Part shown: piece by piece, positions 29,601-32,102 of the stretch
How the letters are laid out: each line of letters begins with the position of its first letter
Numbering within the stretch: the first letter of the stretch is position 1
DNA from: Candidatus Sulfotelmatobacter sp.
Lineage (GTDB): Bacteria; Acidobacteriota; Terriglobia; Terriglobales; Acidobacteriaceae
Reading direction: 5' to 3'
DNA: 37,226 nt
NCBI GenBank assembly: GCA_030041475.1
Contig: JASHNU010000037.1
Span: forward strand, 1 to 37,226
Notes under the pieces: generated by a model
Databases searched by the model: none
What the model was told of the DNA's origin: nothing
The model's input: only the letters and a program-made list of their open reading frames with translations
Program-made: the position numbers and the translations under genes

Positions 29601-30747
29601 CTACGCTAATGTCGTGACGCAGTATTGCGGTGGCTTCGCGGGAATGGCTGGCGGGGGCTGTGCACAAAATGCAAGCGCGGTTCAGTCGCAGCCGTTCTTC
29701 GAGGCTGCTCTCGCCGGTACTGGCTACTGCACGCCGGGGAACTGCACGGCTGCTGTCGTCAAGAACGAGGGTACGAACATCGCAGGTCAACAAGTCTGGA
29801 CAATGTGGAGCGACTTGGACAATGGGCCCTTCAACTTCCCGCACACCATGATGAATACCCCCATCGCCGCCGATTGCGGGGCTGGCACAGGTTTCGGCTG
29901 TCAGGGCCAGCTGACCTCCGGCGTAGCGGTCAACGCCAGCGTTGGGCACGGCAACTACAACGCGGGTTTCGCCTCGGTCAAAATGGCCGACTGGAGAGGC
30001 GTGACCATGCAATCGAATTTCACCTGGTCGAAGGCTTTAGGTACGGGAGCCCTGGTGCAAGCCACCAGCGAATACACTCCCGACGATCCCTACAACTTGA
30101 ACGAGATGTACGGACCTCAGTTCTATAATCGCAAATTCGTTTACAACACGTTCATCGTCTATAGCCCACCGTTCTACAAGGGCCAATCAGGCGTAATGGG
30201 ACGGGTCCTGGGCGGCTGGACGTTTTCGACCGTTCTGACCGCAGGCAGCGGACAGCCCAACCAAATCTGGACTACGGGCTTCTCCGGACAAGAGTTCGGC
30301 AGCGGGGATGCCATCAACTTCAACACTCTGGCAACCGCTGTGCCGCTCGGACCTCTTCCTGCGCATGGTCACGCTTACAGTACGCCGGGGTCCAACGGTA
30401 TTGGCACCGGTGGTTACCCGGTCAATATTTTTCAAAACCCGGCAGCTGCCTTCGCCGACTACCGCAATCCGATCCTTGGCCTGGACACGAAGGACACTTC
30501 CTATGTCTACGGCCTGCCGTACTGGAATATGGACTTCAGCATTCGAAAGAATATAAAAATCGCTGAAACGATCGCTCTAGAATTCCAGGGCAACTTCGTG
30601 GATGTCCTCAACCATAATCAGTGGCTGGATCCTCCGGAGTCATGGGGGCTTTACTCCCCAGCCACTTTTGGCAATCTGGGAGGCCAAGCACAAGAGAATC
30701 CCGGCGGCAATCGCAGCATTCAGCTGGCTGCTCGCGTTCGCTTCTAA
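26674..30747 (+). CDS. Oar-like TonB-dependent outer membrane receptor with CarboxypepD-regulatory domain
   Basis: Outer membrane protein of 1357 aa from the ATG at 26674, with AGGAGGGG just upstream. The signal peptide runs to about residue 34 (PMWAQ). A CarboxypepD-regulatory/Ig-like domain spans about 38-120 (GTLAGTVTDPSGAVVNGASV; GRYIFVDLAPGGYELSVTKQ). A plug-like region follows (NTINSAALDALPSIGRDVST, FSLDGGNNSNDMDGN, QDSVEEFKVNTAGQTADFNS). From about residue 320 on there is a long beta-barrel rich in aromatic-ended strands, ending SIQLAARVRF with the terminal Phe used for barrel insertion. This is the Oar class that is greatly expanded in Acidobacteriota, thought to import large substrates such as glycans or peptides. 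No SusD-like partner or TonB gene is nearby. An inverted repeat at 30753 follows the stop. Confidence 0.93.
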   Translation: MNRVRRQSLQSFTICVVALVITLVLTNAIPMWAQSTNSGTLAGTVTDPSGAVVNGASVNLTDNATKTARSTTTNDAGRYIFVDLAPGGYELSVTKQGFATTKTQVTIEVGVATNANLKLQVGGSSVVVEVTSATNELQTMNATVGNTINSAALDALPSIGRDVSTFVELQPGVTPEGSVAGTVNDQSYFSLDGGNNSNDMDGNMSTYTQTYAGDPTGGVAAQNYFWLGVGNPTGVMPTPQDSVEEFKVNTAGQTADFNSSAGAEVKVVTKRGTNAWHGTAYEYYLDNNWSSNAWQNNLDNWEGVAQCGAPNCGHVGLPTFHYSRFGGAIGGPLIPKDIAGGKTYFFFNFEAFRWPGNSVTIDRDVPSPGLLAGNITDPVTGTVYSLASIDPRGIGLNPVVSQVWNTFEPPSNHSCVNTLCDGTNVLGFSANVNLPEKNNFMVGRIDHDFSAKWHFMSSYRYFKYATNATSDQVDIGGFFSGDTLGVPASQSGDPQQAWYWVAGITTNITPNTTNDFHYSYLRNWWQWARAGDVPQLPGLGGALEIYSGEGNGHYENLAPYNVNTQQTRTRFWDGHDQMFRDDISMLHGDHLFQFGGQYQHNFNWHQRTDNGGGINYQPVYQLGIGASGSGLTADLPICSIINPATGSPDIPNCPALTAAALGIVSISQIAYTRSGPTLTLNPPLTPAFDQDTIPFYNVYFSDTWHMKPTLTLTYGLGWTLEMPPVEKNGKQVELVDQNDEPVSAPDYLAARQRAALQGQVFNPEVGFALVGNTGKGLKYPYDPFYGEFSPRVALAWNPHFDADTTIGKIFGHQDSVVRGGYGRVYGRLNGVDLVLVPLLGTGLIQPVQDFSPLSPTGGSCPAQTGVLACNAFRIGIDSATGPGTINAPLPTPSTTLPQPDYPGYNAIAAGAGESLDPHFRPNVVDSFDLTLQRQLSRKVTLELGYIGRRITHEYQPININAVPYMMTLGGQSFAQAYANVVTQYCGGFAGMAGGGCAQNASAVQSQPFFEAALAGTGYCTPGNCTAAVVKNEGTNIAGQQVWTMWSDLDNGPFNFPHTMMNTPIAADCGAGTGFGCQGQLTSGVAVNASVGHGNYNAGFASVKMADWRGVTMQSNFTWSKALGTGALVQATSEYTPDDPYNLNEMYGPQFYNRKFVYNTFIVYSPPFYKGQSGVMGRVLGGWTFSTVLTAGSGQPNQIWTTGFSGQEFGSGDAINFNTLATAVPLGPLPAHGHAYSTPGSNGIGTGGYPVNIFQNPAAAFADYRNPILGLDTKDTSYVYGLPYWNMDFSIRKNIKIAETIALEFQGNFVDVLNHNQWLDPPESWGLYSPATFGNLGGQAQENPGGNRSIQLAARVRF

Positions 30748-30752
30748 CGCTC

Positions 30753-30777
30753 AGGTGGCCTTGTTAAAAGGCCATCT
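30753..30777. terminator. Stem-loop between the convergent Oar-like gene and selC
   Basis: AGGTGGCCTT (30753-30762) pairs with AAGGCCATCT (30768-30777), ten pairs with one G-U, around a 5-nt loop. No T-run follows on either strand, so termination is likely but not proven. Confidence 0.45.
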
Positions 30778-30816
30778 GACGGTTAATTCATTTTCCAGTG
30801 CTGCGCTCTTAGAAAT

Positions 30817-30914
30817 TGGCGGAAGCGAGTGGGGGTCGAACCCACCGACGACGAGGGAACCCGCCGCCCGCCGGTTTTGAAGACCGGGACGATCACCGGA
30901 CCGCATGCGCTTCC
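30817..30914 (-). tRNA. selC: Selenocysteine tRNA (anticodon UCA), with encoded CCA
   Basis: A 98-nt minus-strand gene folds as tRNA-Sec. The acceptor stem starts GGAAGCG and pairs with CGCTTCC; the eighth position, typical of tRNA-Sec, appears as a C-U mismatch. The D arm has six pairs, several G-U (GCGGTC with GATCGT), around a CGGT loop. The anticodon stem CCGGT/ACCGG holds loop CTTCAAA with anticodon TCA at 30880-30878. A long nine-pair variable arm (GGCGGCGGG with CTCGTCGTC, loop TTCC) follows. The T arm is GTGGG-TTCGACC-CCCAC. Discriminator G and CCA are encoded. The product inserts selenocysteine at recoded UGA. selA, selB and selD are not in the window, nor did I see a UGA-recoded gene. 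Confidence 0.96.
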
Positions 30915-30930
30915 GCGATGAGACAGTAAA

Positions 30931-30958
30931 AGGCCACGGACTGTTATATCCGTGGCCT
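30931..30958 (-). terminator. Ten-pair hairpin after the peroxiredoxin gene, before selC
   Basis: AGGCCACGGA (30931-30940) and TCCGTGGCCT (30949-30958) pair perfectly around an 8-nt loop. On the minus strand the stem runs into TTTTA. It probably ends the peroxiredoxin transcript and also overlaps the candidate selC promoter. Confidence 0.55.
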
Positions 30959-30972
30959 GTTCTGTTTCGCAA
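30943..30972 (-). promoter_or_regulatory. Candidate selC promoter
   Basis: On the minus strand TTGCGA (30972-30967) and TATAAC (30948-30943) are 18 bp apart. The start would be near 30936, about 22 nt before the tRNA 5' end. The -10 lies in the loop of the hairpin listed above. Confidence 0.45.
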
Positions 30973-31087
30973 ATGCCGGCGCAAGTTTCCAGGGCTAAGG
31001 CCGGCATCGCTTGCGACCGGCGTCGGCGCCTAAGAACCGCAGCCTTCCCACGCCAACCTCAGAGGTCGCAACCTCGTGTTACGCCGC

Positions 31088-31768
31088 TCACTTCGGCTGG
31101 GGCACGATGCGCAAATACGGCTTGGGAGCCTTGAAGTTGCCGAATTTCTTTCGCGCCTCGTCGTCGCTGACGTTACCGCCCACGATCACGTCCTGGCCCG
31201 GCTTCCAGTTCGCAGGCGTTGCCAGCGAATGCTTGGAGGTGAGTTGCAGCGAGTCGATGACGCGCAGGATCTCGTCGAAGTTGCGGCCCGTGGTCATAGG
31301 ATAGCTTAGCTGCAGCTTCACTTTCTTGTCCGGGCCCACCACGAACACTGTGCGCACGGTCGCGTTGAGCGCAGGGGTGCGGCCTTCGCAGGTATCTCCC
31401 GCATCGCCCGGGAGCATGCCGTAGAGCTTGGCGACTTTCAGTTGCGGGTCGCCGATCATGGGATAGTTCACTTTCGCGCCCTGCGTTTCTTCGATGTCGG
31501 TCTCCCACTTCTTGTGGTTAGCGACGGAGTCGACGCTCAGACCGATGATCTTGGTGTTGCGCTTGGCGAATTCCGGCGCCAGCTTCGCCATCGCGCCAAG
31601 TTCGGTGGTGCAGACCGGCGTGAAATCCTTGGGGTGGGAAAACAGGATCGCCCAGCCGTCGCCGATCCATTCGTGAAAGTGGATGGTGCCCTGCGTGCTT
31701 TCGGCAGTAAAGTCGGGTGCCGTGTCGTTGATGCGGGGGATACTGGTGGTTTCGGTAGCAGTGGTCAT
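31088..31768 (-). CDS. Peroxiredoxin of the 1-Cys (Prx6) type
   Basis: Thiol peroxidase that reduces hydrogen and organic peroxides. The ATG at 31768 has AGGAG 7 bases upstream; an in-frame TTG one codon earlier is rejected. The 226-aa product has the peroxidatic site FSHPKDFTPVCTTELG with Cys53, Thr50 and Pro51, and the supporting Arg in LNATVRTVFVV. The long C-terminal domain (from about 165: KHSLATPANWKPGQDVIVGG, then PYLRIVPQPK) is the mark of the Prx6 class. A second Cys (127, DTCEGRTP) is not in a standard resolving position. The gene is preceded by a Cys-rich leader ORF and an intrinsic terminator on the same strand, so its expression is probably attenuated. It is divergent from phzF. 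Confidence 0.95.
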   Translation of the reverse strand: MTTATETTSIPRINDTAPDFTAESTQGTIHFHEWIGDGWAILFSHPKDFTPVCTTELGAMAKLAPEFAKRNTKIIGLSVDSVANHKKWETDIEETQGAKVNYPMIGDPQLKVAKLYGMLPGDAGDTCEGRTPALNATVRTVFVVGPDKKVKLQLSYPMTTGRNFDEILRVIDSLQLTSKHSLATPANWKPGQDVIVGGNVSDDEARKKFGNFKAPKPYLRIVPQPK

Positions 31769-31850
31769 CAAATATCTCCTTTCTACATTGAATACTTAAG
31801 ATTAAAAGTTTTGCTCCCGCCCAGCCCAAACCCAGTCGTGCGCAGTGGGG

Positions 31851-31884
31851 AAAAAATAAACCCACCCGCTCGCTGGGGTGGGTT
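31851..31884 (-). terminator. Intrinsic terminator in the peroxiredoxin 5' leader (attenuator)
   Basis: On the minus strand AACCCACCC (31884-31876) pairs perfectly with GGGTGGGTT (31867-31859) around an 8-nt loop, followed by T-A and six T (31856-31851). It lies about 80 nt upstream of the peroxiredoxin ATG on the same strand, with no full-length gene upstream for it to end. This is the position of an attenuator. Confidence 0.9.
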
Positions 31885-31902
31885 GGAAGAATCTCGCTGA
31901 CT

Positions 31903-31955
31903 CCCTACCCACCGAGCAGGCAGATGCAACAACACATCATGCAGGAATTGGTAGG
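31903..31955 (-). promoter_or_regulatory. Attenuator segments 1 and 2 of the peroxiredoxin leader
   Basis: Segment 1, CCTACC (31955-31950), can pair with GGTAGG (31909-31904). The overlapping segment 2, GGTGGGT (31913-31907), can instead pair with ACCCACC in the 5' arm of the terminator (31883-31877). This gives protector, antiterminator and terminator as mutually exclusive hairpins. Segment 1 is codons 4-5 of the leader ORF and segment 2 is codons 18-20. Confidence 0.75.
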
Positions 31956-31964
31956 CTGCGTCAT
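31905..31964 (-). CDS. Cysteine-rich leader peptide of the peroxiredoxin gene
   Basis: A 19-codon ORF reads MTQPTNSCMMCCCICLLGG and stops at TAG. Five of 19 residues are Cys, including three in a row (codons 11-13) plus codons 8 and 15. It has no ribosome site, but its ATG falls at the expected transcription start of the promoter at 31971-31999, so it may be read from a leaderless mRNA. Its last codons form the antiterminator strand. By analogy with trp and his leaders, ribosomes stalled at Cys codons for lack of charged tRNA-Cys would mask segment 1, free segment 2 and prevent termination. The in-frame ATG codons 9-10 could serve as a shorter start. The role is inferred from arrangement only. 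Confidence 0.7.
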   Translation of the reverse strand: MTQPTNSCMMCCCICLLGG

Positions 31965-31970
31965 TTTGCA

Positions 31971-31999
31971 AGGATAGAAGCCCGCCGGGCTGGTGTCAA
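31971..31999 (-). promoter_or_regulatory. Sigma70 promoter of the leader peptide-peroxiredoxin unit
   Basis: On the minus strand TTGACA (31999-31994), a perfect -35, and TATCCT (31976-31971) are exactly 17 bp apart. The spacer holds an inverted repeat AGCCC-GCC-GGGCT (31979-31991) that could be an operator. The predicted start, about 7 nt on, falls on or next to the A of the leader ATG (31964). Confidence 0.75.
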
Positions 32000-32102
32000 A
32001 CGGCACGCGGGGCGTTTCAGGTTTTCTGCATCGCGGTCGCGGCCTCAGGCATCTTCCCTTGTTGGTCGGACCTTATTGGTTGGAGTGCGCTCGGGAGGTG
32101 TC

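Follow-up and report, generated by a model that had tools for sequence, protein, structure and literature searches.

Leader-peptide attenuators of the trp and his type rely on regulatory codons, competing hairpins, and a terminator. Polycysteine versions have been described in mycobacteria, where leaderless short ORFs with contiguous Cys codons lie upstream of cysteine genes (Canestrari et al. 2020, as reported in PMC9031893, PMC9094748, and PMC13236596); the accessible portions of these papers tie attenuation to ribosome speed and cysteine and describe it as translational, and the accessible text of PMC1262725 reports that no conserved terminator hairpin was found at the Mycobacterium cys operons. 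The uORFC-8-2 motif upstream of cysS in Rhodobacterales is presented in the accessible part of PMC8632094 as a predicted uORF with Cys codons and an intrinsic terminator, for which ribosome stalling is the model, and the same source describes PBC-28-3, a cis-regulatory RNA motif upstream of AhpC-like peroxiredoxin genes. On the target side, LsfA of Pseudomonas aeruginosa, a 1-Cys peroxiredoxin, is named for its low-sulfate induction (PMC4199769) and is upregulated more than 45-fold in sulfur starvation (PMC12581299), according to the available text of these two papers. Regulation of the kind considered here is already known, from amino-acid leader peptides, mycobacterial poly-Cys ORFs, and the predicted Cys uORF before cysS (PMC8632094).

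The stretch analyzed here (the window, 37,226 nt) encodes on its minus strand, to which all coordinates refer unless stated otherwise, a Prx6-type peroxiredoxin (prx; 31088..31768) behind a poly-Cys leader that very probably acts as a ribosome-mediated transcription attenuator responding to cysteine supply. The leader begins with a -35 element TTGACA (31994..31999) and a -10 element TATCCT (31971..31976), 17 bp apart, the latter 6 nt ahead of the ATG (31964) of the ORF MTQPTNSCMMCCCICLLGG (31905..31964 with its stop). This short ORF, rich in the codons of one amino acid and predicted to be translated, has 19 codons, five of them Cys, with a three-Cys run TGT TGT TGC at codons 11-13 (31926..31934), further Cys at codons 8 and 15, and a TAG stop at 31907-31905. 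The stop codon is overlapped by what we call segment 2 (31901..31913), the 5' arm of a putative antiterminator according to duplex and fold calculations; the 3' arm placed by the fold model (31877..31889) has ACCCACC in common with the 5' arm of an intrinsic terminator (31851..31884). The latter consists of a 26-nt stem-loop (31884-31859, -15.7 kcal/mol) with arms AACCCACCC (31884-31876) and GGGTGGGTT (31867-31859), followed by the T-rich tail TATTTTTT. The stem ends 90 nt before the prx start codon, and about 75 nt separate the terminator from the prx ribosome site, a Shine-Dalgarno-like AAAGGAG at 31776..31782 read from the sequence. A reading made from the DNA letters before this analysis (the sequence-only reading) had located the promoter, the ORF with its five Cys codons, the terminator, and the letters of its proposed pairings (CCTACC 31955-31950 with GGTAGG 31909-31904; GGTGGGT 31913-31907 with ACCCACC 31883-31877) correctly to the base on this strand. 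Its assignment of the downstream gene to the 1-Cys class also agrees with our search, in which the protein matched human Prx6 (1prx) at E 2.1e-64; by sequence it qualifies as a Prx6 (1-Cys) relative, and NCBIfam peroxiredoxin models match it below their cut-offs.

Like the trp and his attenuators, the window leader has regulatory codons, competing hairpins, and a terminator; it differs from them in lacking a conserved segment 1 pairing, in a start that is probably leaderless, and in a target, prx, that does not belong to the biosynthesis of the sensed amino acid. It resembles the mycobacterial ORFs, as these are described in the accessible text, in its probably leaderless short frame, its contiguous Cys codons, and the proposed dependence on ribosome speed and cysteine, but it does not fit a type marked by translational control and the lack of a conserved intrinsic terminator, since it carries such a terminator together with a predicted stop-overlapping antiterminator; it also lies in another phylum and targets a peroxiredoxin and perhaps a tRNA. 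In contrast to our leader, uORFC-8-2 has two tandem Cys codons, another structure, a cysteinyl-tRNA synthetase target, and hosts in another phylum, and PBC-28-3 as described ends next to the start codon, is perhaps translational, and comes with no mention of a Cys leader in the accessible text (PMC8632094 for both). LsfA belongs by name to the same peroxiredoxin subfamily and shares the link to sulfur limitation, whereas the available descriptions mention no leader-peptide attenuator (PMC4199769, PMC12581299). In the open-access literature searched, we found neither an Acidobacteriota case of such an attenuator nor the combination of a terminator-type leader, probably leaderless in its genus, in Acidobacteriota with Prx6 and perhaps tRNA targets.

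The Cys-rich frame is conserved in relatives, a check that the sequence-only reading had asked for: a Cys-rich leader ORF lies ahead of prx in 60 of 69 loci of the window's family and in 0 of 24 outside it, counts that come from loci picked by prx homology only, with detection patterns that varied somewhat between searches. No leader at prx was found in the other nine family loci. Matches to prx occurred in 34 of 61 relatives, from which 30 loci were retrieved, 27 of them in the window's genus; all 27 have a Cys-rich ORF 6-7 nt after a TATNCT -10 box (the start in L034 being a GTG two bases further on), preceded by a -35 element that reads TTGACA in all 27 (the search pattern demanded TTGACA or TTGACC), and the three loci of other families lack a Cys leader. 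Twenty-three further loci of the class yielded a leader in one, a member of the same family, and 80 named loci from many phyla yielded similar leaders in three, all of them Acidobacteriota: L153, L161, and Terriglobus albidus DSM 26559 (L169; Acidobacteriaceae; leader MITRFANSCMCCCRCCCCGPMRVCE). Among 40 loci from other genera of the family, drawn by prx homology alone from 168 genomes with a match, 32 carry a CCC-type leader (for example MTMTPNTMPTLCCCCCCSPVWVCG), with both ORF and terminator parsed in 30. Across all 125 stretches, including 51 fetched via an RNA-model match and 4 by hand, ORF and terminator were parsed in 105 (prx homology alone had supplied 70 stretches, of which 56 parsed), and the 20 unparsed stretches were dropped. 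At E<=0.1 a family-wide RNA-model search found matches in 128 of 398 genomes, with many of the weaker ones confined to the terminator, and it brought up leaders at genes other than prx.

We tested the coding signal with ORFs anchored on the promoter alone, applying no Cys criterion. In the 27 genus loci these ORFs span 16-23 codons with a mean of 4.96 in-frame Cys, compared with means of 2.30 and 0.37 for the two other frames; every one has at least two in-frame Cys codons, and the ORF frame has the highest count of the three in all 27. Because the leader parser required CC, the presence of Cys at the last two run positions in 37/37 leaders is circular. The codons upstream of the run vary freely, whereas the distance from the last Cys of the run to the stop varies little: among 104 leaders it is 24 nt in 64 and falls within 18-30 nt in 94 (the window has 21 nt), about the length that would leave the end of the ORF just uncovered by a waiting ribosome. 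Genus leaders use TGT for 130 and TGC for 46 Cys codons, compared with 7 and 18 in five long window genes, and perhaps slower wobble decoding makes these TGT-rich leaders more sensitive sensors; distant-genus leaders show no TGT preference (TGC 108, TGT 70). The stop is TGA, rather than TAG or TAA, in 2 of 37 genus leaders, and three leaders (L030, L110, and L116) have a premature TAG or TGA before the conserved end, possibly reflecting decay or a shifted release point. The 6-7 nt from the -10 element to the start codon suggest a leaderless mRNA, a spacing found in all 37 parsed genus leaders and in 5 of 30 parsed leaders of distant genera. Upstream of the -35 element, the conserved CGATGCAGAAAA (32022..32033) is a possible activator site; 20 of 27 genus leaders have a CGATGCA-type site there, and in seven of these 20 a second GATGCA lies 20-21 bp further upstream. 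The window itself has a second GATGC near this site, at about 32053.

Related leaders also stand at sulfur genes. A poly-Cys leader precedes the phosphoadenylyl-sulfate reductase gene cysH in three genomes (L127-L129; both cysH proteins scanned from this set score above the NF002537 cut-off), and another precedes a gene resembling 3-mercaptopyruvate sulfurtransferase (L119, model match below cut-off). The window's own genome has a leader MHTRMSDFLKSVASCCCTCCCCACVCAGAGRRLT with nine Cys and a -24.5 kcal/mol terminator (G000:C51:66364-66260, minus strand) at the head of an operon for a sulfite/nitrite reductase-like protein (below model cut-offs), siroheme synthesis, and cysH (above cut-off). 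This leader was located by reading upstream from cysH and not with RNA model R1, which returned no second prx-type leader in the genome (next E 0.5). A poly-Cys leader with a terminator likewise heads both other genus sulfite reductase-cysH operons that were read to their head; within 900 nt upstream of cysH, the genus loci examined contained no CCC-type leader, although one sits at the operon head in these three operons. In another family of the same order, one genome has the leader MVRTSSHMCRCCCHTTCMWPEVGRNPR and a terminator at cysD. At the other end of the cysH operon of the window's own genome (L245), a LysR gene is convergent with cysH; its best match is a selenium-metabolism LysR model, below the cut-off. 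This poly-Cys leader type thus marks sulfur-assimilation genes, with prx as one target, and the Prx6-type peroxiredoxin would belong to a cysteine-limitation regulon, a placement supported by the leaders and by analogy with what Pseudomonas LsfA would suggest.

The two RNA structures proposed to compete at the leader are predicted across much of this set. In the window, GGTGGGTaGGGAG (31913-31901) pairs with CTTCCaACCCACC (31889-31877) at -19.5 kcal/mol, compared with -15.7 for the terminator, and the duplex of segment 2 with the terminator 5' arm reaches -21.1 against -11.8 in 200 dinucleotide shuffles (p=0.005). The same comparison falls below p<0.05 in 47 of 104 leaders (L110, with too short a segment, was left out), and the other 57, including the cysD leader (p=0.229) and L257 (p=0.08), show no individual significance; the cysH-type leaders L127, L128, and L129 gave p values of 0.58, 0.23, and 0.21, and one of the three sulfite-reductase leaders missed the threshold. 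In a two-state fold model, which left out L015 for its mis-parsed terminator (the shuffle test kept it), a switch was called when terminator probability exceeded 0.8 with the ribosome at the stop and that of the nascent antiterminator exceeded 0.5 when the ribosome was stalled. The first condition is predicted for 88 of 104 leaders, the second for 85, and both for 77, in support of the ribosome-mediated attenuator with Cys codons that the sequence-only reading had proposed. For the nascent antiterminator, controls with shuffled spacers passed in 222 of 520 trials (43%), a rate that implies that C-rich arms and G-rich leaders pair easily, and the predicted excess is clear over a high background. 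At equilibrium the modeled terminator probability with a stalled ribosome falls below 0.5 in just 14 of 104 leaders (0.28 in the window, whose antiterminator is predicted to prevail even without a ribosome); since the terminator mostly wins with segment 2 free, the model needs co-transcriptional folding. The antiterminator helix touches the stop in 99/104 leaders, a figure largely built into the search window used.

The pairing scheme of the sequence-only reading stands in part. Its terminator and the complementarity of segment 2 to the terminator arm are conserved, with CCCACCC and GGGTGGG invariant in 26 aligned genus leaders (entry required CCCACC[C/G]-like arms, and L017 was left out), and the design recurs in other letters in the G339 leader (CUGCGGGUG/CACCCGCAG), a leader at sulfite reductase (CUGGCG/CGCCAG), and the cysD leader (GAGGUGGG/CCCACCUC). 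Its expectation of compensatory changes was not borne out, as covariation in the genus alignment was not significant, and is uninformative because the terminator arms are nearly invariant within the genus. As a shared element, its segment 1 pairing of CCTACC with GGTAGG has to be dropped, CCTACC occurring in 1 of 37 genus leaders. In 14 of the 37 the 5' part of the ORF pairs with segment 2 more strongly than shuffled controls do (p<0.05; window p=0.17), and a first segment may possibly operate in some species; two competing structures are enough for an attenuator.

We propose that transcription would start at or next to the leader ATG and that the ORF would be translated leaderless. When Cys-tRNA-Cys is plentiful, the ribosome would reach the stop and cover segment 2, the terminator would fold, and transcription would end before prx. 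A shortage of Cys-tRNA-Cys would keep the ribosome waiting on the Cys run, leaving segment 2 free to pair with the 5' arm of the terminator as this arm emerges, and with the antiterminator formed RNA polymerase would read into the Prx6-type peroxiredoxin gene. The physiological signal would be cysteine supply. Sequence comparison establishes that the ORF, its Cys richness, the spacing, the terminator, and the competing complementarity are conserved and that related leaders occur at sulfate-assimilation genes.

A chance ORF ahead of an ordinary terminator, with no regulation, would be in keeping with several of the statistics within the window. The Cys count of 5, compared with a shuffle mean of 1.86, is equalled in 30 of 2,000 shuffles and is only moderately unusual, terminator-like sites are common (2 found, 2.3 expected), and shuffled spacers fairly easily give antiterminator-like pairing. 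The promoter scores 10/12, with 2 such sites in 2 kb compared with 0.3 in shuffles, and among 589 small window ORFs three contain CCC, of which the prx leader alone has a downstream terminator. Against chance stand the leader in 60 of 69 family prx loci and the complete lack of ORF-terminator pairs, by the same parser, in 139,761 bases from other stretches of the same genome (some overlapping) and in 38,415 bases that follow prx in 40 genomes of the family. This conservation is the decisive evidence that the leader is regulatory, and we give a chance origin almost no credence. Strong conservation at the RNA level could also be expected of a ligand-binding riboswitch that happens to contain an ORF, but the enrichment in Cys codons is confined to one frame, and no Rfam family reaches its gathering score over the leader, which belongs to no known Rfam riboswitch, T-box, or leader family (the one match in the whole window is a tRNA-Sec); a riboswitch is accordingly extremely improbable. 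That the Cys-rich motifs are conserved might also mean that the peptide itself acts, for instance as a metal- or thiol-binding microprotein. This is very unlikely given that the N-terminal parts vary freely, that the spacing to the stop is narrow, and that the end, which is conserved (CG stop in most genus leaders), is at the same time the RNA segment with complementarity to the terminator.

Two further alternatives accept the leader as a sensor. Mainly translational control, with the prx ribosome site hidden, would follow the leaderless poly-Cys ORFs of M. smegmatis, described in the accessible text of PMC13236596 as translation attenuation of cysteine genes; the conserved intrinsic terminator well before the prx ribosome site argues against it, and we consider it improbable. 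The signal might instead be oxidation, for example where peroxide depletes cysteine or inactivates cysteinyl-tRNA synthetase, and the sequence-only reading had left the choice between cysteine and oxidative state open. That the target is a peroxidase and that the conserved upstream site may bind an activator speak for oxidation, but limitation of cysteine or sulfur explains the leader better than oxidative state alone does, given that leaders of this kind also precede sulfite reductase-cysH, cysH, cysD, and a sulfurtransferase gene. Oxidation in place of sulfur limitation is therefore unlikely as the signal, and both could act through one leader. We retain a transcription attenuator responding to cysteine supply as the preferred reading.

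The surroundings of prx hint at a wider target. The next recognized gene after prx in the window is a tRNA-Sec gene (30821..30914; RF01852, 66.5 bits), with a terminator-like 11-bp hairpin (30931..30958) 16 nt ahead of it that argues, on sequence grounds, against simple co-transcription of the two; no promoter-like site was found in window positions 30700-31200. Same-strand tRNA-Sec lies downstream of prx in 17 of 27 genus loci (including L033, L034, and L030; some contigs end early), in seven of these at 15-59 nt counted from where the prx match ends (a distance that takes in the stop codon), and was not seen in the stretch read for the other 10; in G010, G011, and G022 tRNA-Sec is 2-11 kb from prx. 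Thirty-seven further loci fetched by RNA model have tRNA-Sec in nine and tRNA-Cys in one. The sulfurtransferase-like locus L119 is ordered leader, sulfurtransferase-like gene, tRNA-Sec, and L170 has tRNA-Sec behind prx with no leader visible. In the window's own genome no tRNA-Cys was found among the 38 classified of 41 tRNA matches at E<=1e-8, and a tRNA-Cys DNA query gave no match at E<=0.01. Five of 15 AhpC/TSA-family matches in this genome contain one in-frame TGA (C50:153952, C3:65118, C3:161075, C18:16508, and C51:102697 of G000), candidate selenoproteins in keeping with the tRNA-Sec gene.

In the 40 loci of other family genera, tRNA-Cys follows prx on the same strand in 29, between 29 and 218 nt past the stop (median 50), and 21 of these 29 gaps lack TTTT. 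Leader and tRNA-Cys occur together in 29 loci, the leader alone in 3, tRNA-Cys alone in 0, and neither in 8 (Fisher p=2e-6, ignoring kinship). Of the three genomes with the leader alone, G172 and G267 do have a tRNA-Cys about 860 nt downstream, just past the stretch first read. In all 20 family genomes chosen for a tRNA-Cys search at E<=1e-4, the best match shares the strand of prx and lies 38-859 nt downstream of that gene; the threshold would miss a second, Gly-linked tRNA-Cys type, which several genomes have, among them G415 and the genus member G018. Neither tRNA-Sec nor tRNA-Cys was found at the 24 prx loci outside the family, and at L148 tRNA-Cys is upstream of prx. In two of the eight genomes without a leader at prx, a tRNA-Cys at another site has a poly-Cys leader and a terminator of its own ahead of it: in G140 with another peroxiredoxin between leader and tRNA, and in G291 (L465, minus strand) with the tRNA 234 nt after the leader stop and no recognizable protein gene between. 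At the G140 locus (L464) the tRNA-Cys is followed by an integrase-like ORF and, 7 kb on, by a partial second tRNA-Cys match, the pattern expected had a mobile element inserted into the tRNA gene. Near the Gly-linked tRNA-Cys no poly-Cys ORF was seen in G018, G097, or G127. That the prx-linked copy is the sole tRNA-Cys is unproven, with a second copy beside tRNA-Gly in G415 and three tRNA-Cys-like matches away from prx in G314, which has the leader.

We give roughly even chances to the leader being the sensor of a thiol-tRNA operon, in which poly-Cys leader, prx, and tRNA-Cys would form one operon in Terriglobus and other Acidobacteriaceae, with tRNA-Sec in the genus version. We know of no tRNA gene under leader-peptide control, and a narrow search of the accessible open literature found none. 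If the proposal is true, a tRNA-Cys gene would be controlled by the speed at which ribosomes decode its own codon, which would provide an example of such control. A named species in culture, Terriglobus albidus DSM 26559 (L169), makes both the attenuator and the tRNA proposal open to testing. The attenuator itself would add a family-wide cysteine attenuator to the Acidobacteriota, built from a poly-Cys leader, probably leaderless in the window's genus, and an intrinsic terminator, and would show one way of tying a Prx6 peroxidase to cysteine supply. In the window's genus, should the operon proposal hold, cysteine shortage would raise both the peroxidase and the selenocysteine tRNA.
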